From a virus, in the IMG/VR virus record IMGVR_UViG_3300009080_000020, positions 1-43,431 of that record: a DNA stretch of 43,431 nucleotides, one strand, 5' to 3'. A program made the position numbers and the translations under genes. Positions 33,785-42,768 of this stretch are shown here, piece by piece. Under the pieces are notes generated by a model. It saw only the letters and a list, made by a program, of their open reading frames with translations, searched no databases and had not been told where the DNA came from. Numbering within the stretch: the first letter of the stretch is position 1; every line of letters begins with the position of its first letter.

Positions 33785-34198
33785 CTACCCTTTCGATGCG
33801 ATGTTTAGGAAGCACCACAAGGATCCGAGAGCCAATGGCAGGTACAAAAAGGCTGCCAGGGAGATCGTTAGAGGGCTGTTGATTAAAAAAGTGAGTGTCA
33901 GCGCAATGTACCACATGAAGCCGACCCAAGCTCCCGCCATCCGGAGCGCGGGGGACCTGCGCCAGCGACCATTGACGACGACGCCGGACGTCTGCGCGGC
34001 ACCCGCAAAAACGGTTAATAACCCCCAATACAGCTCGGGCATGACCGTGGTGTACGACGCATAAATCTCGCCCATGCTGGGTGTGGGCAACGCGATTGCG
34101 AGCCCGCGAGACAGAAGGACGAACCCAAGAAGAAATTCCGCGCTGCGGGTGTCCAGGGACCAGAGCCAAATAAGGGTATTTCGGGCAACTAAGGGCAT
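33785..34198 (-). CDS. Four-TM membrane protein
   Basis: A 137-residue protein with four likely membrane helices: about 18-38 (AEFLLGFVLLSRGLAIALP), 52-72, 85-106 (AGAWVGFMWYIALTLTFLI) and 108-130. ATG 34198 overlaps the dioxygenase stop by ten bases. It lies between the fibre-modification genes and the lysis genes. It could be a holin, or a superinfection/immunity protein; I cannot decide from sequence. A frame on the same strand at 33780-34277 overlaps it but shows no protein-like pattern. Confidence 0.65.
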   Translation of the reverse strand: MPLVARNTLIWLWSLDTRSAEFLLGFVLLSRGLAIALPTPSMGEIYASYTTVMPELYWGLLTVFAGAAQTSGVVVNGRWRRSPALRMAGAWVGFMWYIALTLTFLINSPLTISLAAFLYLPLALGSLWCFLNIASKG

Positions 34199-34755
34199 AT
34201 CGCAACCCCATAAACTCTATCGCGGCCCAACGCGTCCCGCGTGTACCCGTGCAGGGGGTCTTCAACCTCCGCGACAAAATTCAAAAATCGCCTGGCATAC
34301 TGGGACGGCCCGCGCGGGGTTACGTGGTGCCACGCACTTCGCAGGTTTGGAAATATCACCATCACGTTTTCCGCGTATGGCACCCGGATATCGCCAACCA
34401 TCAGGTCGCCGCCTGCCTTGTCTTCTGGGTGCGCGAAGTACCATAGCCCGATTAGTGCTTTCCTGCCGTGGTCAAGGTGCGGCTGGCGCACATTGGTCGC
34501 CTCCGGTGAGGCAGGCTGTGTTGAAAACATCGAACGCACGCCTGTGATCTGTATCGGCTTGCCGTATTCGGCCAAAAGCGCCTCCCCAAACAGCGCCATC
34601 GCATCATTCATCTGGCCCGCGAGCCAGCCTGAGACTGCGGGAACATCGACGGGCACATCTGACCTGCCGCTACTGTCCGTTTTGCCAACCCTCCAGCTTG
34701 CTTTCACTTGTTCGTATAGGTGCGCTGGGCCGGGTTTGATAAGCATCGGGGTCAT
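34189..34755 (-). CDS. Fe(II)/2-oxoglutarate dioxygenase, prolyl hydroxylase-like
   Basis: A 188-residue enzyme of the 2OG-Fe(II) oxygenase superfamily (2OG-FeII_Oxy_3 / prolyl 4-hydroxylase type). The iron ligands follow the HxD...H pattern: H93 and D95 in RQPHLDHGRK, then H143 or H144 in SAWHHVTPRG. The 2-oxoglutarate-binding Arg is R155 or R156 (YARRFLNFV), and GGDLMV, YAENVMVIFP and the strands between give the double-stranded beta helix. It overlaps the gene before it (ATGA) and is third after the collagen-like fibre. Hydroxylation of prolines in that fibre is the most attractive role, but DNA or another phage protein could be the substrate. Confidence 0.85.
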   Translation of the reverse strand: MTPMLIKPGPAHLYEQVKASWRVGKTDSSGRSDVPVDVPAVSGWLAGQMNDAMALFGEALLAEYGKPIQITGVRSMFSTQPASPEATNVRQPHLDHGRKALIGLWYFAHPEDKAGGDLMVGDIRVPYAENVMVIFPNLRSAWHHVTPRGPSQYARRFLNFVAEVEDPLHGYTRDALGRDRVYGVAICP

Positions 34756-35387
34756 GCTGCCAGCCTCGCTTCAACATCATCCGCGAAGTATGGGTCTGTC
34801 ACGTTCACTGAGAAGTCCTCAAGCCACGTCAGGCACTTGACGACGTTAGCCCACGAAGGATCGGCAGCAAGAGGCCCGAACAGCCCGCCCATGGGGGCCG
34901 TCACAGGCTTGCCGGTCATCACCGCGCTAAGGATCAGGCCCGAATGCGGATTGTCGATCCTGATTTCACTGGCCGCGTGAAACAGACTTTCCAGTGAATA
35001 GCTGGGCGCCGCGTCTTTCGGGTGCCAGCGGTTCAGGTCGCAGCCCGGCATGTCGCCGAGCCCCAGAACAAAACCACTTCGGCCCGGCCAGTGAAGCCTG
35101 CAATCAATACTTCCCCACTTCTGCGGAACGCGCGGCACCCGCTCAATTACCGAGGGGTCGGGCCGTGTGCCCGCCCAAGGCGCTTCCGCCGAGAAGTGGC
35201 TAACGTGCAGCCCGCCACGGGACAGCATGAACCAGTGCGGGATGGGGTTGCCCTCAGACCAAACAACCCTGCTATCAACCGGGGCGTTCAGATCATCAAG
35301 GTGGACCATGTCGTCAGTGACACGCGGAGCGAATGCCGCCAACAGCGGAATTATACTGCTTTTCCAAGGCTGTTCAGCCCGGCGCAT
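34752..35387 (-). CDS. Unknown protein with weak glycosyltransferase-like C-terminal motif
   Basis: I choose ATG 35387 (211 residues), ten bases after the preceding stop; a TTG nine codons earlier would overlap it. The protein is rich in Trp and His in the first half. The segment ASEIRIDNPHSGLILSAVMT plus GKPV (about 150-172) has the look of the C-terminal donor-site strand-loop-helix of GT-B glycosyltransferases and related sugar enzymes ('..NP.SG...A...GKPV'). That likeness is partial and judged by eye. It lies between two dioxygenase-like genes behind the collagen-like fibre, so a role in fibre modification is plausible. It could equally be an unrelated structural or host-interaction protein. 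Confidence 0.6.
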   Translation of the reverse strand: MRRAEQPWKSSIIPLLAAFAPRVTDDMVHLDDLNAPVDSRVVWSEGNPIPHWFMLSRGGLHVSHFSAEAPWAGTRPDPSVIERVPRVPQKWGSIDCRLHWPGRSGFVLGLGDMPGCDLNRWHPKDAAPSYSLESLFHAASEIRIDNPHSGLILSAVMTGKPVTAPMGGLFGPLAADPSWANVVKCLTWLEDFSVNVTDPYFADDVEARLAA

Positions 35388-35397
35388 TTGCCATTCT

Positions 35398-35907
35398 TTA
35401 ACTGAGAAAACCAAAGCTGAATCTCGTCTTTTCCGTCCAGATGCTGTGCCACATCGGGTAGTCGGCGCTCACGTCGAACTGCCGACCGGTCCAACCTATG
35501 CCGTCTTCCTCGACGTGCATGTTGCCCTCTTGGTCCATCCATCGAAAGTAAGCTTTGCCCAGCGTGTGCGTGAAATATGTCCGTAAACCCGGTTCATCCC
35601 GGTTCGTATGAAACGGCATCATTGTCTGCGGCAGATAAACGCAGTGGTTCTTGACCTCACGCGCACCCGCCATTTCGGCGACACGCTTTAGCCTTGGCAT
35701 CTGGTGGTGAAAATCCAAAGGCGTAACCAGCAACGAAGGCTGTCCTGCGTTTTTCTTGTAGACCTCAACGTCAGGCACAGTCTGGGCGAAGAACTCGGCC
35801 TCTGAAATGTTCGGGCCCACCGACAGGTTTTGCCAATTCGGGGCCATGTCAGCAACCACGTTCGCCAACTCATTAGCGATCAGGGTCGTTACCTCGACGG
35901 TCTTCAT
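35398..35907 (-). CDS. Possible second Fe(II)/2OG dioxygenase-like protein
   Basis: A 169-residue protein with a likely jelly-roll fold. MPFHTNRDEPGLRTYFTHTL holds H100 followed by N102 and D104, and the C-terminal MWHSIWTEKTRFSFGF has H154 and R162, the spacing expected for the distal iron His and the 2-oxoglutarate Arg. The canonical HxD is changed to HTN, with an Asp two residues later, so the iron site may be atypical or lost. The nearest named type would be aspartyl/asparaginyl hydroxylase-like. It overlaps the preceding gene by four bases and sits two genes after the fibre. Confidence in the coding call is high, in the enzymatic call moderate. Confidence 0.6.
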   Translation of the reverse strand: MKTVEVTTLIANELANVVADMAPNWQNLSVGPNISEAEFFAQTVPDVEVYKKNAGQPSLLVTPLDFHHQMPRLKRVAEMAGAREVKNHCVYLPQTMMPFHTNRDEPGLRTYFTHTLGKAYFRWMDQEGNMHVEEDGIGWTGRQFDVSADYPMWHSIWTEKTRFSFGFLS

Positions 35908-36347
35908 GTGGGCTTCCTTTCCATGGCCGCGTTGATTTGATCAGCTTCAGTCGCGTCGATCTTCCCATCTTGCAGGATTTTATCTACCGCCTCCGGCTTC
36001 ATGTATTTTCGAGCGAGGCTGACCAGCGTGTTAAACCGCCCGATCTGGGTGGGCGACCGCGTGACTTCGCGCGTCTGATCTTCGACCATCTTGGTGATCT
36101 CGTCGGCCAGCATTTGCTGACCCTTTTCAGTCTTCGTCGGGGCAAGCATCGGCGCGGCGTCAACGATACCATCGTCAAATTCATCGTAGAAGGTCAGCGT
36201 CACATCTTCGAGCACGTCAACGTCCACCGTCAGGCGTCGCTGCGTCACACCCTCGTGGTTCATGTGCTTGGGGAATGGACGTTTCTGGTGGCAGTTGTAG
36301 CTGCCGTCCGCGTCATTAAAGAGGAAATACCATTGTTCAGCGGCCAT
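35904..36347 (-). CDS. Unknown fibre-associated protein
   Basis: A 147-residue protein whose ATG (36347) shares its first base with the last base of the fibre stop, so it is translationally coupled to the fibre. The N-terminal half is strand-like (EQWYFLFNDADGSYNCHQKR) and the C-terminal half is helical and charged. The arrangement suggests a tail fibre chaperone or fibre-tip partner, as often found directly after fibre genes. I do not recognise a known family. Confidence 0.65.
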   Translation of the reverse strand: MAAEQWYFLFNDADGSYNCHQKRPFPKHMNHEGVTQRRLTVDVDVLEDVTLTFYDEFDDGIVDAAPMLAPTKTEKGQQMLADEITKMVEDQTREVTRSPTQIGRFNTLVSLARKYMKPEAVDKILQDGKIDATEADQINAAMERKPT

Positions 36348-38149
36348 TAGCTCACACTCCTGTATTCGGTGCGGACCCGCATTGTTTTATATTGGGAATC
36401 GTTGCTTCCGGCGGTTGACTGCGCCCAATCGAACCCGGTAACGACCCCGTCGCTAGGCGCGTTCATTCCGTCGTCCAGCGCGCTTACCATCGATGACGCG
36501 TCATCCCATTTTTCGTAGCTGGACCAACTTCCGTACTGCGCAGCGCCGAGGGTTGTGCCGCCTGCACCGCCGGGGATAATCTCGACGTTGAGCTCGGCGG
36601 CGTTGTCCGGCAGAGCGCCAACATCACTCACGGTGACCGTCCAGTCGGTGTACCCGGCATTGTCAGTCACCGCCGTGATATCGAAGATAGCCCACTTTGT
36701 AGCGTCGTTGGCCTGCCGGATTATGATTTTCCCTGCGTCCACACTGGCGAAGAAGGCGGACAGGTCGCGCCCGGCGGCGTCCTCGTCGTCGATGTAAATG
36801 CCTGTTACACTGCCGATGGTCGCATTGTCGAAGCGGATCACGCCCGCGCCGGGGTCCGCGTCCGCCGTCGTACCGCTGAAAGTGAACGGGAAGCCTGCCG
36901 GGCTGCCCGCCGCCCCGGCTGCACCGGTGGCCCCCTGCGCACCCGCCGGTCCTTGGGCCCCCTGTGGGCCTTGGACCCCTTGATCCCCTGTGAGACCTGT
37001 TGAGCCTTGGGCCCCGGTCGGGCCTGCTGGTCCTGTGGTATCAAACCGCGATGTCCAGGTCGAAGCGCCAGTCTTCTCGTAGACAAGGCCGCTGTCCCTG
37101 AACGCGAAGTCCCCGATTTCGCCGAGGGCGCCGTCGGGTACGTCCGTGACGTAGTGCGTTGTCGCGCCAGTGTCCCCGGTGGTGCCAGTGGCCCCGGTGG
37201 GGCCTTGGATGCCTTGCGCCCCGGTTGCCCCGTCGGCGCCCGTGGGCCCTTGCGCCCCGGTGTCGCCCGCCGGGCCCGTAGGTCCTTGCGCTCCGGTGGG
37301 TCCTTGCGCGCCGCTCTCGGCCATAATGTCGAAGTAACTGGTGTTCGTCGGCAGCTCGCCCGGGGTGGTCGCCGCCGTGCAAATATACGCATTGCCATCC
37401 ACGGTGTAGTGCACGCCATCGCCGATCGCGTAAGCCGTGCCGACGTCCCAGGCCCCCTGCCAAGTGCTGCCGACTGGGCCGGTTGGTCCCGTGGGGCCTG
37501 TTGGTCCTGCCGGGCCAGTTGCCCCGTCGGGACCTCTGCCGAAGTTTACGCCCGTGGACCAGTCGGCGCTGGTGTTGGACAGCTTCCAGAAAATCTCGCC
37601 GATTTCCGTGTCGAGGAAGGCGAAGCCCATGGCTTCCGCATCATAGGTTGATTTGTCTGCGCTAGGGCCGGAGGCATCCGGTACGAAGCTGTTGCCTGCG
37701 GTGCCGGTGTCCCCCGTGTCACCTTGATCGCCTTGGGGCCCTTGCGCTCCGGTGGCCCCCGTGGGTCCTGCCGCACCCGCCGTGCCTTGCTGGCCTTGGA
37801 TACCTTGGGTGCCTTGGGGGCCTTGGGGCCCGGTTTCGCCCGTCGGGCCGGTTGCGCCTTGCGCCCCGGTGGGTCCTTGCGCGCCGGTGGAGCCTGTAGG
37901 CCCTGCCGGTCCGGTGGGGCCAGCGGGGCCGGTGGCGCCGATCAGGCCGACGTCTGCCGCTGCGGGTTTGATCCTGCCGTCGTCGTCGATTGCCTGCCGG
38001 ACAAAATCAATCGTGTCATTGAGGCTGGCGTTGGTGCCGTCGATCTCGGCGTCTACGCTCGCGCCGGGGAGAGGCGTCCCGGGGTCGTTGACCGCGTGGT
38101 TCGTGAACGACGTCGCGCGCGTTCGTTTGCTGGGGACTGGCTCGGTCAT
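36347..38149 (-). CDS. Collagen-like tail fibre protein
   Basis: A 600-residue receptor-binding fibre. I start it at ATG 38149; a longer frame exists but runs through noncoding-looking sequence. Residues 1-70 form the virion-attachment part ([20 protein letters not shown] near the start). Four collagen-like blocks follow: about 71-151 (27 uninterrupted Gly-X-Y triplets), a short one near 190-210, one near 265-320 and one near 355-400. Between them lie short globular inserts with Trp and Tyr. Triplets are mostly GPT, GAQ, GPQ and GAT, so Pro is mainly at X and Thr or Gln at Y. The C-terminal 200 residues are a beta-rich head domain. Directly downstream are dioxygenase-like genes. Confidence 0.88.
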
Positions 38150-38932: not shown

Positions 38933-39055
38933 TCACAGCGCCAGGTTAAACAGGATCACCACCGCCCCAAGCCAGAGCCCCTCCACCGCAAGCTGGCGCA
39001 CCAGACAGGCCAACCGGCGGCGGCGGCGCGCGCTGTCACGCGGCCCAGCAGTCAT
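38933..39055 (-). CDS. 40-residue single-TM protein
   Basis: ATG 39053-39055 overlaps the VWA gene stop as ATGA. The product has an Arg-rich N-terminus (DSARRRRRLACLV) and a C-terminal hydrophobic helix (LWLGAVVILFNLAL), so it should be a small inner membrane protein with its N-terminus inside. It lies between the VWA gene and the terminator, so it belongs to that operon. It may tether the AAA+/VWA complex to the membrane; this is inference. Confidence 0.5.
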   Translation of the reverse strand: MTAGPRDSARRRRRLACLVRQLAVEGLWLGAVVILFNLAL

Positions 39056-41142
39056 CGCGCCACCTCGCCCAGCAGCGCGGCCTCGATAGCGCCAGGCAAG
39101 TCTGCCAGCCGCTCGCCCACGACACTTGCGCGGCTGCGCCCGAAAACCTCCTGCATAGTGTCTAGATCGATGCCGGATCCGATGCCGACACCGCAATGCT
39201 CGACACCCTGCGCCAGCGCCAGCCGCATCGCGGTCGCCGCAGCAGCCGCGTCGAATGCCTCCCCGTCGCAAAGCCACAGGGCAATCCTGCGCTCAGCGCG
39301 CTGGCCCAAAAGCTGCGCGGTTGCCCAGTTCGCCTCTCTTGCCATAGGTGTCCCGCCTAGCCGATTGGCCTTCCGAAACGCTTCCAGACAACGTGCCGAA
39401 GTGGGGCGATCACCAAACCGGAAAAGCGGAAACACGCTAGGCTTGGACGCGCTGTCTGCCAGCAACCCAACGCCCTTGGTCGCACCTTGTGCCACCGCTT
39501 GCCCATCTCCTGACGCGCAAGAGGTTGTAAACGCCGCCAGCGCAACCCTGGCACCGGCCCGATGTATCGCCGGGACCACAACAGACAGAACCGCCAGCGC
39601 TGCGGATATTCGCGACACGCGCCCATAGGTCATGCCTGGGGCGTCCTCCGGATCACCCATAGACCACGATGCGTCCAGCATCACCTGAACCGCAGTCGTC
39701 ATGCCGGGGGTGATGCCGCGCCGAGACATAACGTCCGGCGCGCCCATCGCCGTCCGTGTAACCGCGCGCCGGTCTAGTCTGCCGTGCTGCAATCTCCTCT
39801 CGTGTGTCACGCGCTCAACAGATTTGAGGCCGCGCCGGGTGGCGGTCTCAAGCTGTCTTGTCGCCAATAGTGCGCGAAATTCCCGGGTTTCATCCGCGCG
39901 TATGCCCGCTTGGCTGTTTTTCCAGACAGTGCCCGCGCGCCCCTCGAACGCCATTGACGTACGAAAGCCCGAGATCGGATCCTGGGGGTTGTCCTCGTTT
40001 GCAAATGGTTTCGCACCATCCTGCGCAGTGCTGTCCGACATGTCTGCCGCGCGCATATCATCTGGCGACGCCAGCGCGACGCCCCGCTGGTCCTGCTGAC
40101 CGTCCTGACCGTCCTGACCGTCCTGACCGTCCTGACCGTCCTGGCCCTGACCCTGGCCCTGACCGTCCTGGCCCTGACCGTCCTGGCCCGGGCCCTGACC
40201 GTCCTGACCGTCCTGACCGTCCTGACCGTCCTGACCGTCCTGGCCCTGGCCCTGGCCCTGACCGTCCTGACCGTCCTGACCGTCCTGACCGTCCTGACCG
40301 TCCTGACCGTCCTGACCCTGACCGTCTTGCTGGTCCTGGTCCTGGTCCTGGTCCTGGTCCTGCAATTCGACAAAAGCGTCAGCGGCCCAGCGAAACCGCT
40401 CCGCGTGACAGTCAATCGGATTGCGCTGCGATCCCGCAGCCTGCCGGTCTAGCTGGTCGAGCAAACGGTCCAACACCGTGCGGACACTGTCCGGTGTATG
40501 CTCTTGCGCCGCCAGCATTGCCGCCTCCAGGCCCTGTGCGGTCTGATGCCCACGCCGGTTGATGTTGCAAACGATATAGTTTGATGCCGCGCGAACACGT
40601 GTCTCCGTGTCTGCCCAGTCGATCTTAGGCCATTGGCTCGCGGTCTCGGCGTAGAAATCGACGTTTAGTCCACCGAGCAATTCGCCAGCGTTCCCACAGA
40701 CAGAAGTGGCGGGGGCGCACCCCATCGTTTCGATAAAATAATCCTCAGCCGCGTTAAAAAACGAAGGAAAGGCCGTGTTGGATAGCATCACCCCGGTGCG
40801 CCTAGTTTCTTCTGAATAGCGGTGCTCTATCCGGGTCGGGTTTAGATCGGTGTGCAGGATGTGCAGAAGTTCGTGGATCACAAAGGCCAGCGTTTTCCGC
40901 GCCAGTTTGGCGCGGATCCGGGTCTCTGGATCAATCGATGGCAGCGCAACTGTGAGCGAACCGGGCTTGCCGGGTGTCTCGCCCACATAGGCTGTCTGCC
41001 CGCCCGTGATCGAAACCACAAACGGGTCTGGCGCATGGCGTCCCTTGCTGGCCAGAATGGCCAGCACCGCCTTGCGTGTGCTTTCGACAAAGTCGCGGTA
41101 AAGGACCTTGCCCGAAAAATCGTAGATGCTCGTGCTGGTCAT
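39052..41142 (-). CDS. CobT-like VWA protein with zincin-like N-terminus
   Basis: A 696-residue protein from ATG 41142. The N-terminal domain contains VIHELLHILHTDLN with H90, E91, H94 and H97, the pattern of a zinc metallopeptidase helix as in DUF2201-like and CobT-like proteins. A low-complexity acidic linker of QDG/QDQ units spans about 261-351. The C-terminal VWA domain has an intact MIDAS start (MLDASWSM, D490, S492, S494) and LWLCDGEAFD later. CobT pairs with the AAA+ protein CobS in cobalt chelation, but the chelating subunit CobN is absent here. A MoxR/VWA-type remodelling role is thus more likely. It is coupled to its neighbours by ATGA overlaps. Confidence 0.85.
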   Translation of the reverse strand: MTSTSIYDFSGKVLYRDFVESTRKAVLAILASKGRHAPDPFVVSITGGQTAYVGETPGKPGSLTVALPSIDPETRIRAKLARKTLAFVIHELLHILHTDLNPTRIEHRYSEETRRTGVMLSNTAFPSFFNAAEDYFIETMGCAPATSVCGNAGELLGGLNVDFYAETASQWPKIDWADTETRVRAASNYIVCNINRRGHQTAQGLEAAMLAAQEHTPDSVRTVLDRLLDQLDRQAAGSQRNPIDCHAERFRWAADAFVELQDQDQDQDQDQQDGQGQDGQDGQDGQDGQDGQDGQGQGQGQDGQDGQDGQDGQDGQGPGQDGQGQDGQGQGQGQDGQDGQDGQDGQDGQQDQRGVALASPDDMRAADMSDSTAQDGAKPFANEDNPQDPISGFRTSMAFEGRAGTVWKNSQAGIRADETREFRALLATRQLETATRRGLKSVERVTHERRLQHGRLDRRAVTRTAMGAPDVMSRRGITPGMTTAVQVMLDASWSMGDPEDAPGMTYGRVSRISAALAVLSVVVPAIHRAGARVALAAFTTSCASGDGQAVAQGATKGVGLLADSASKPSVFPLFRFGDRPTSARCLEAFRKANRLGGTPMAREANWATAQLLGQRAERRIALWLCDGEAFDAAAAATAMRLALAQGVEHCGVGIGSGIDLDTMQEVFGRSRASVVGERLADLPGAIEAALLGEVAR
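40091..40362. repeat. 9-bp tandem repeats (GACCGTCCT and variants) in the VWA gene
   Basis: About thirty copies of GACCGTCCT, GGCCCTGAC and GGTCCTGGT-type units code the Asp/Gln/Gly linker of the VWA protein. Slippage would change linker length without frameshift. No spacers, so not a CRISPR. Confidence 0.9.
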
Positions 41143-41324
41143 TGGATTAACTCCCCATTGATTTCGATTAGGTCCGGCGAACCGTCCAGTTCTGCGCAAT
41201 CCAGCGCGTCCCGCATGTCTGCGCAATCCAGCGCGTCCCGCATGATCGCGCGGGCGTGGCGCTCGTCTGCCGCCTCGAATGTGAGACTTGCAAAAAGTTT
41301 TAGGTCAAAAGTGAAATCAGGCAT
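41139..41324 (-). CDS. 61-residue protein between AAA+ and VWA genes
   Basis: ATG 41324 overlaps the end of the AAA+ gene, and the stop overlaps the VWA start (ATGA), so the three are one translational unit. The product begins MPDFTFDLKLFASLTFEAAD and contains a nearly exact duplication (MRDALDCAD / MRDALDCAE) caused by a 27-bp DNA repeat at about 41193-41246. Small and acidic, no known domain. Probably a subunit or adaptor of the AAA+/VWA complex. Confidence 0.65.
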   Translation of the reverse strand: MPDFTFDLKLFASLTFEAADERHARAIMRDALDCADMRDALDCAELDGSPDLIEINGELIQ

Positions 41325-42768
41325 CGGCCAAATCCCCCTTCTTAACTTCTGCGGTCCAAAGCTGCCGCAGGGTCTCGCGGTCCTCGGAAGGCGCTGTTTC
41401 CAGCACAGAGATCTGAAACGCCACATCCGCCGGGGTGCCAAAACGAAGCTGTTTGGCCAGCGCGCACAGCCGCCGGAAGCCGACCGCGTGAGACAGGTCG
41501 CCGTCGTCGGTCTTGCTGCGCGTCAAATTGGCCAGTTTGACCAGTGCGCCGCACGCTTTCTTGCCCAGCCCGGTGCGACCGTGCAGCGCGCGTGCCTCGT
41601 CTTGCGCGCTCATGTAATCCAACTTCACCGTGATGTTGGGCCGGTCCAGAAAAGCCCGGTTCAGCCGCCGGGTTGCCTCGTATGCTCCGGTTTCGTCCCC
41701 GGTGCCGTTCGTGTTGTCTGCAAGGATGAACAACACGCCAGGCGCGACCGGGATGCGCTCGCCGGTCTCGGCGATGTTCATGCAACGCCCGTCATCTAAG
41801 ACAGATTGCAGCACAAACAGTGCGCCAGGGCGCGCAACACTAGGCTCGTCAATCAAGATCACCGTCCCTGGGCGGCGGATAGCCTTTGCCAGTTGTCCGT
41901 CCTGCCATTTGGTGCCGCCGTTCAAGTCTGGCACAGTCATGCCAGACAAAACCGCTGCCTCGGTCTGGTCATCGCACGAGATCCGCACGAAAGGCCGCTT
42001 GTAGGTCGCGGCGATTTGCTCCGCGAACGTGGTCTTGCCCGTGCCTGCGGGGCCATACAAAAACACCGGCGCTTGATTGGCCAGTGCCGCGACAATCGGC
42101 CCAGTGTGGGCGGGCCAAATATATCCGGGGTCCACTGCTGGCGCGTTCCCGGCGTCGTATAGGTCCATTGCCGTAGCGTCGTCATTGACGGGCGTCTGCG
42201 TCGTGATGTTCGGCAACTCGGACAGTTTTTTGCGGTCTGCGATCTTTGCGACCTCGCCAGACAAGTGCGACGTGTCATAGTTCTGCACAGGCGCTGCCAT
42301 GATCGGCGCGGGGTCAGGGCGGCACGCCTCCCGGGCCATTGCCAACATGTCATCGCGATACTTGACCACGTCACCAGACGCAAAGGCCGCGTGTATGCCC
42401 TGCACCCGCGCTTGCGCCGCTGTCTCGACCGGGTCCGCCTTTGGTGCCGGTGTGCTGACCGGGGCGCTGACCGGGTCGCTTGTCGTGCCGCCAGCCTCAT
42501 GCAGCGCCTGCGCCTGCGCCGCCTCTACCATCGCCTCGCCCGCATTCACGCCAGCGCCTTTTGCGCTGTCATACGCCGCCGCCGCCGCATCGCATGGCAC
42601 CGGAATGCCCGCGACGTCTGCAAGCTGCAACAGTTCGGCATTGGGCAACGTGCTGACCGCTGCGCCGCCGTGCATCGCATCCAGCGCCGCGCTCGCCTCG
42701 CTGCTGGCGTTTATCAGCGCACGCAAGATCGTGCGCTTTGTTCCTCCAAGTTTCGTTCGGTCTGACAT
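41317..42768 (-). CDS. CobS/MoxR-like AAA+ ATPase
   Basis: A 483-residue AAA+ protein. Walker A is GPAGTGKT (239-246), Walker B VILIDEPS (D307, E308), sensor 1 lies near LFILADNTNGTG, and an Arg finger candidate is in ATRRLNRAFLDRP. These fit the CobS/MoxR branch, which works with VWA partners. The N-terminal 200 residues are helical and Ala-rich without a known domain and may bind the partner. ATG 42768 has GGAG upstream. First gene of a leftward operon (AAA+, 61-residue protein, VWA, small TM protein). It probably uses ATP to remodel a target held by the VWA subunit. Confidence 0.9.
   Translation of the reverse strand: MSDRTKLGGTKRTILRALINASSEASAALDAMHGGAAVSTLPNAELLQLADVAGIPVPCDAAAAAYDSAKGAGVNAGEAMVEAAQAQALHEAGGTTSDPVSAPVSTPAPKADPVETAAQARVQGIHAAFASGDVVKYRDDMLAMAREACRPDPAPIMAAPVQNYDTSHLSGEVAKIADRKKLSELPNITTQTPVNDDATAMDLYDAGNAPAVDPGYIWPAHTGPIVAALANQAPVFLYGPAGTGKTTFAEQIAATYKRPFVRISCDDQTEAAVLSGMTVPDLNGGTKWQDGQLAKAIRRPGTVILIDEPSVARPGALFVLQSVLDDGRCMNIAETGERIPVAPGVLFILADNTNGTGDETGAYEATRRLNRAFLDRPNITVKLDYMSAQDEARALHGRTGLGKKACGALVKLANLTRSKTDDGDLSHAVGFRRLCALAKQLRFGTPADVAFQISVLETAPSEDRETLRQLWTAEVKKGDLADA

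Follow-up and report, generated by a model that had tools for sequence, protein, structure and literature searches.

The question raised by the locus considered here was which molecule would be acted upon by the putative modifying enzymes encoded behind a collagen-like phage tail fiber gene, and in particular whether the collagen itself would be hydroxylated and then glycosylated, as stated in the original prediction. The DNA analyzed, hereafter referred to as the window, was an IMG/VR virus record of 43,431 bases; the features concerned are listed in Table 1.

Table 1. Position and characteristics of the fiber gene, its C-terminal tip, and the four cassette genes in the window.
Feature	Coordinates	Strand	Characteristics
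Collagen-like tail fiber	36347–38149	minus	600 aa, ATG start; Pfam Collagen and PHROG tail fiber matches, triplet blocks
Fiber C-terminal tip	36347–36565	minus	72 aa; three-lineage alignment
Candidate fiber chaperone/assembly factor	35904–36347	minus	147 aa; conserved, C-terminus weakly XkdX-like
Possible double-stranded beta-helix oxygenase	35398–35907	minus	169 aa; invariant residues, weak cupin/2OG fold matches
Protein with a short GT-B-like motif	34752–35414	minus	220 aa, TTG start; motif NPxSGLILxAxMxGKP
2OG-Fe(II) oxygenase, PF13640 type	34189–34755	minus	188 aa; motif residues, profile matches

The fiber protein matched the Pfam family Collagen (PF01391; E = 2.3e-30), and tail fiber entries were obtained in the PHROG search. 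It contained 69 Gly-X-Y triplets, arranged as the long uninterrupted runs expected for PF01391 in four blocks of 29, 8, 17, and 15 triplets; in shuffles of the same protein (n = 1000), the longest run was 8 triplets. The four blocks had been predicted as such, and the 27 triplets originally assigned to the first of them represent its strict core, since the total of 29 includes the edge triplets GLI and GNS. Proline was indeed found mostly at position X (25 times, versus once at position Y), position Y was occupied mostly by Thr (31) and Gln (21), and no Lys was present in the Gly-X-Y triplets of the window fiber.

On the minus strand, 3' of the fiber gene, there were four overlapping genes, followed by two small ORFs and an endolysin gene. 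The junctions leading from the fiber gene through the four cassette genes were TAATG, ATGA, a 17-nt overlap, and ATGA, which confirms the coupled operon proposed earlier; the gene at 35904–36347, passed over in the original prediction, brought the cassette to four genes. Elsewhere in the window (39052–42768, minus strand), two adjacent genes encoded a CobT-like protein, in which there were extended low-complexity repeats of Gly-Gln-Asp, and an ATPase of the CobS/MoxR type (PHROG 249, E = 6.5e-58); this pair may be unconnected to cobalamin.

Viral contigs were scanned with the three candidate-enzyme proteins and with alignments, and the same seven contigs were obtained. Consequently, the cassette was known from eight virus records (the window and seven others) forming three lineages: three of the seven contigs were near-identical to the window, whereas the cassette proteins of L004 and of L005, L006, and L007 had identities of 39–72%, depending on the protein. 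In the relatives, the four genes followed the fiber gene in the same order (the last gene of L007 runs off the contig), and the overlaps were kept throughout the lineages, the one exception being the second junction of L004, which was a short gap and not ATGA. No host or prophage was found when genome contigs were searched with two of the cassette proteins, and among GenBank phages and plasmids the cassette relatives were confined to remote 2OG proteins and partial matches of 35%.

The product of 34189–34755 had the HxD...H iron triad and the 2OG-binding Arg of PF13640 (2OG-FeII_Oxy_3), with H93, D95, H143, R155, and R156 invariant in the alignment of the three lineages. The dioxygenase motif predicted for this protein was thereby upheld, apart from H144, the alternative to H143, which varied among the lineages. 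The PF13640 match of the window protein (E = 0.0011, 20.4 bits) was under the 27-bit cut-off, whereas that of its L005 relative was above it (28.6 bits), and its profile matched cyanophage 2OG proteins with a probability of 84–96.5%. Judging by motif and profile, this protein is a genuine 2OG-Fe(II) oxygenase with predicted catalysis.

Several observations concern the annotation of related proteins. PHROG 274, which is named DNA endonuclease (V), weakly matched the window oxygenase, and proteins annotated as 'DNA endonuclease (V)' (L180 3284–4490, L182 5417–6046, and L187 7932–8498) clustered by BLAST with 2OG oxygenases; therefore, the public annotation may be wrong. In Pelagibacter phage HTVC008M (L181 4962–7835), an uninterrupted run of four genes annotated as 2OG, with a 'ferrochelatase' gene behind it, was located near tail genes.

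Among the cassette proteins, the product of 35398–35907 showed the highest conservation (64–72% identity between lineages), with invariant H100, N102, D104, R109, H154, and R162 forming the motif H100-x-N102-x-D104...H154...R162. The HxD/E...H triad of the 2OG superfamily was absent, HxN being present in all lineages, and the family search returned zero matches. Its structure model was mediocre (pLDDT 64; the other four of the five models were below 38) and matched mainly cupin/2OG folds (E of about 0.004–0.03) along with unrelated entries. Thus, of the second dioxygenase-like protein predicted earlier, the weak fold matches of the model leave a possible second oxygenase, a candidate lacking HxD and a family match. 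The spacing H100...R109 had pointed to aspartyl/asparaginyl hydroxylase (AspH, PF05118); this assignment was rejected, as the PF05118 profile matched no protein of the window or its relatives and hhalign against weak phage PF05118 matches gave less than 1%.

The product of 34752–35414, whose TTG-start overlap was kept in all three lineages, had an identity of 46–59% between them. The sugar-transferase-like motif noted previously was found, whereas transferase identity did not follow from it: the Pfam search gave zero glycosyltransferase matches, hhalign against eleven phage glycosyltransferase (GT4) proteins reached a probability of at most 3%, the comparison with the GT4 structure HepE/Alr3699 gave E = 1.6, the structure model was unusable (pLDDT 37), and two Rossmann domains would usually need more than 220 aa. 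Membership among the glycosyltransferases was accordingly not adopted, the short motif being the one feature in its favor.

The 35904–36347 protein was conserved in all lineages (39–42% identity), its match to TIGR01669 (XkdX; E = 0.028) being under the cut-off, and from its position it is probably a fiber chaperone. The fiber itself differed strongly among the lineages. In L004, it was a collagen of the Gly-Ala-Asp/Thr kind that contained a single Pro and lacked Lys, and in L005, L006, and L007, it was a protein of 289 aa with zero Gly-X-Y blocks. The sole part of the fiber common to the three lineages was the 72-aa tip, in which 40 of 72 alignment columns were invariant, including P37, D39, N55, and D56 (tip numbering), and whose identity to the window was 61–64% despite the unlike shafts. 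A scan of viral contigs with the tip, which reaches close relatives, returned exactly the seven cassette contigs and no others, and both the PF13640 gene and the tip were present in all eight records. In addition, the gene immediately following the cassette in the collagen-free lineage (L014 6371–7123) encoded a repetitive protein of 250 aa, with units like VSVSTDANVPLTGVQATTALGT.

When every ORF of the window (43 kb) was compared by blastp with G001 (35 kb) and G002 (14 kb), the module alone was in common. G001 and G002 shared two further small ORFs just downstream of it, and the major head protein of the window belonged to a different PHROG from that of G002. Outside the module, no protein common to the window phage and the other two lineages was detectable in these fragmentary records; the pattern, with a conserved module in otherwise unrelated genome fragments, is that of a host recognition module. 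The tip and the four genes therefore travel together, with the shaft replaced from one lineage to another. Thus, within the fragmentary records of three lineages, sequence comparison demonstrated that the unit is co-inherited with the 72-aa tip by phages with no other detectable protein of the window phage.

These data bear directly on the proposal of Pro or Lys hydroxylation by the oxygenases within the collagen blocks and of their glycosylation by the third enzyme, which we consider quite unlikely. A collagen shaft was present in two of the three cassette lineages; however, the cassette of L005–L007 occurred without collagen, the L004 collagen had one Pro and no Lys, and that of the window had no Lys and one Pro at Y. 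Given this composition in L004, prolyl or lysyl hydroxylation of collagen cannot be the function that the lineages share, and lysyl hydroxylation of collagen was rejected because Gly-X-Y triplets contained no Lys in any lineage. Oxygenases in relatives without a collagen-like protein, an observation named beforehand as refuting the original prediction, were seen in the L005, L006, and L007 contigs, where no ORF with at least six consecutive triplets was found; as these contigs are fragments of 5.6–14 kb, a collagen gene could lie elsewhere in those genomes. Collagen as the conserved substrate was therefore rejected for this cassette, given the L005–L007 fiber without Gly-X-Y, and what stands of the predicted fiber–enzyme link is the gene linkage kept in the three lineages.

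A role for collagen is possible elsewhere, since PF13640 genes were found beside collagen fibers in several unrelated phages (L057, L075, L193, L191, L194, L192, and L087) and adjoin the collagen fiber of cyanophage S-8S56. A DNA scan for (Gly-Pro-X) yielded at least 59 records that had 10 or more triplets, and a PF13640 gene was present in 10 of the 59 listed collagen records (in 7 of them within about 2 kb of a collagen gene, including 3 in which it was directly adjacent). Among 50 listed control records with a different fiber repeat, there were two such genes, one of which was counted as adjacent. The differences in presence (10/59 versus 2/50; Fisher p = 0.036) and adjacency (7/59 versus 1/50; p = 0.068) refer to 2.13 and 0.81 Mb of collagen and control records, respectively, and the p values are uncorrected for record length, relatedness, and several looks, so that the association in the listed records is suggestive only. 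Meanwhile, 13 of the 14 phage 2OG neighborhoods examined, including two taken from weak matches, were without collagen, the remaining one being S-8S56 (55 triplets). As a separate observation, oxygenases unlike those of the window cassette lay beside collagen-like fibers in L177, L191, L192, L193, L194, L057, and L075.

Because the four genes and the tip recur without the collagen shaft, the enzymes look like tools that finish or accompany the tip. We therefore favor, with a probability of about 0.45, a mobile host-recognition module whose enzymes most likely modify the fiber tip; if they act on the tip, the collagen would be an interchangeable shaft and not the substrate. The fiber tip, the probable chaperone, the 2OG-Fe(II) oxygenase, the candidate second oxygenase, and the GT-like protein form one translationally coupled unit, and the shaft exchanged between phages is a Pro-rich collagen, an Ala-Asp/Thr collagen, or none. 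The fiber, chaperone, and enzymes would be co-translated late, and the enzymes would modify conserved residues of the tip as the trimer assembles or beforehand, which would alter folding or receptor binding. The four invariant tip residues named above may be the targets and are given as a lead, not as evidence. That the exchanged receptor-binding unit carries two oxygenases and a sugar transferase of its own through which its tip matures, for example, by hydroxylation followed by glycosylation, is a more specific version that we regard as doubtful.

Co-inheritance of the module without the enzymes touching the fiber could also result if all of its parts concern one host receptor. According to this main alternative, the enzymes alter the host surface (e.g., lipopolysaccharide) or another receptor and so exclude rival phages. 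Co-inheritance with a presumed receptor-binding tip across unrelated phages fits such a role, the GT-like motif would suit it, and the 2OG enzymes include lipid A hydroxylases of the LpxO type; however, the cassette is coupled to a late fiber gene and followed by lysis genes, and no known surface-modification family was recognized in the family searches of the cassette. We consider this alternative unlikely. Many marine T4-like phages have several PF13640 genes near unrelated genes, as would be expected if the window enzymes served auxiliary metabolism or nucleic acid modification and their adjacency to the fiber were incidental. The strict conservation of the four genes with the fiber tip while the remaining genome changes argues against this, and we consider it very improbable.

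The 2OG-Fe(II) oxygenases of marine phages are numerous and, to our knowledge, mostly of unknown substrate. For the preferred reading, modification of the tip, the persistence of the cassette with one 72-residue tip while shaft and genome change suggests a specific, small, and testable substrate. If it is correct, the recognition of a host by a phage can require that the receptor-binding tip be enzymatically modified, which would affect both sequence-based host range prediction and the production of recombinant fibers.

In literature searches on phage collagen with a hydroxylase, no paper describing such a pairing was found. The E. coli prophage proteins EPclA and EPclB resemble the window fiber in having a collagen shaft with Pro mostly at X but, unlike the window, have no modifying enzymes, and the EPclA fiber is stable without hydroxylation or glycosylation (PMC3368898). 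Mimivirus, a eukaryotic giant virus, is described as encoding collagen together with 2OG hydroxylase and glycosyltransferase activities, L230 being a bifunctional lysyl hydroxylase (Luther et al. 2011, as cited in PMC12220804; PMC9546862). In contrast, Lys is absent from the Gly-X-Y triplets of the window collagen, which is not kept across lineages along with the enzymes; these in L005–L007 accompany a fiber without a Gly-X-Y block, so that the co-occurrence with a collagen substrate expected of a mimivirus-type system was not found. In Synechococcus phage S-8S56 (OQ504984), a collagen fiber is followed on the same strand by a small ORF and then an adjacent pair of 2OG genes, an arrangement resembling that of the window; however, the small ORF had no profile match to the 35904–36347 protein, the 2OG proteins are remote from those of the window (PF13640 level), and a GT-like gene was not identified. 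The closest parallel to the mobile unit, set beside the window by description alone, is the module of Alteromonas phages A5 and V22: the part of PMC10579305 that presents this fiber/chaperone pair describes it without oxygenases and as common to unrelated, morphologically distinct marine phages, and, as in the window, where the chaperone is a probable one, a fiber and a downstream chaperone are conserved between phages.
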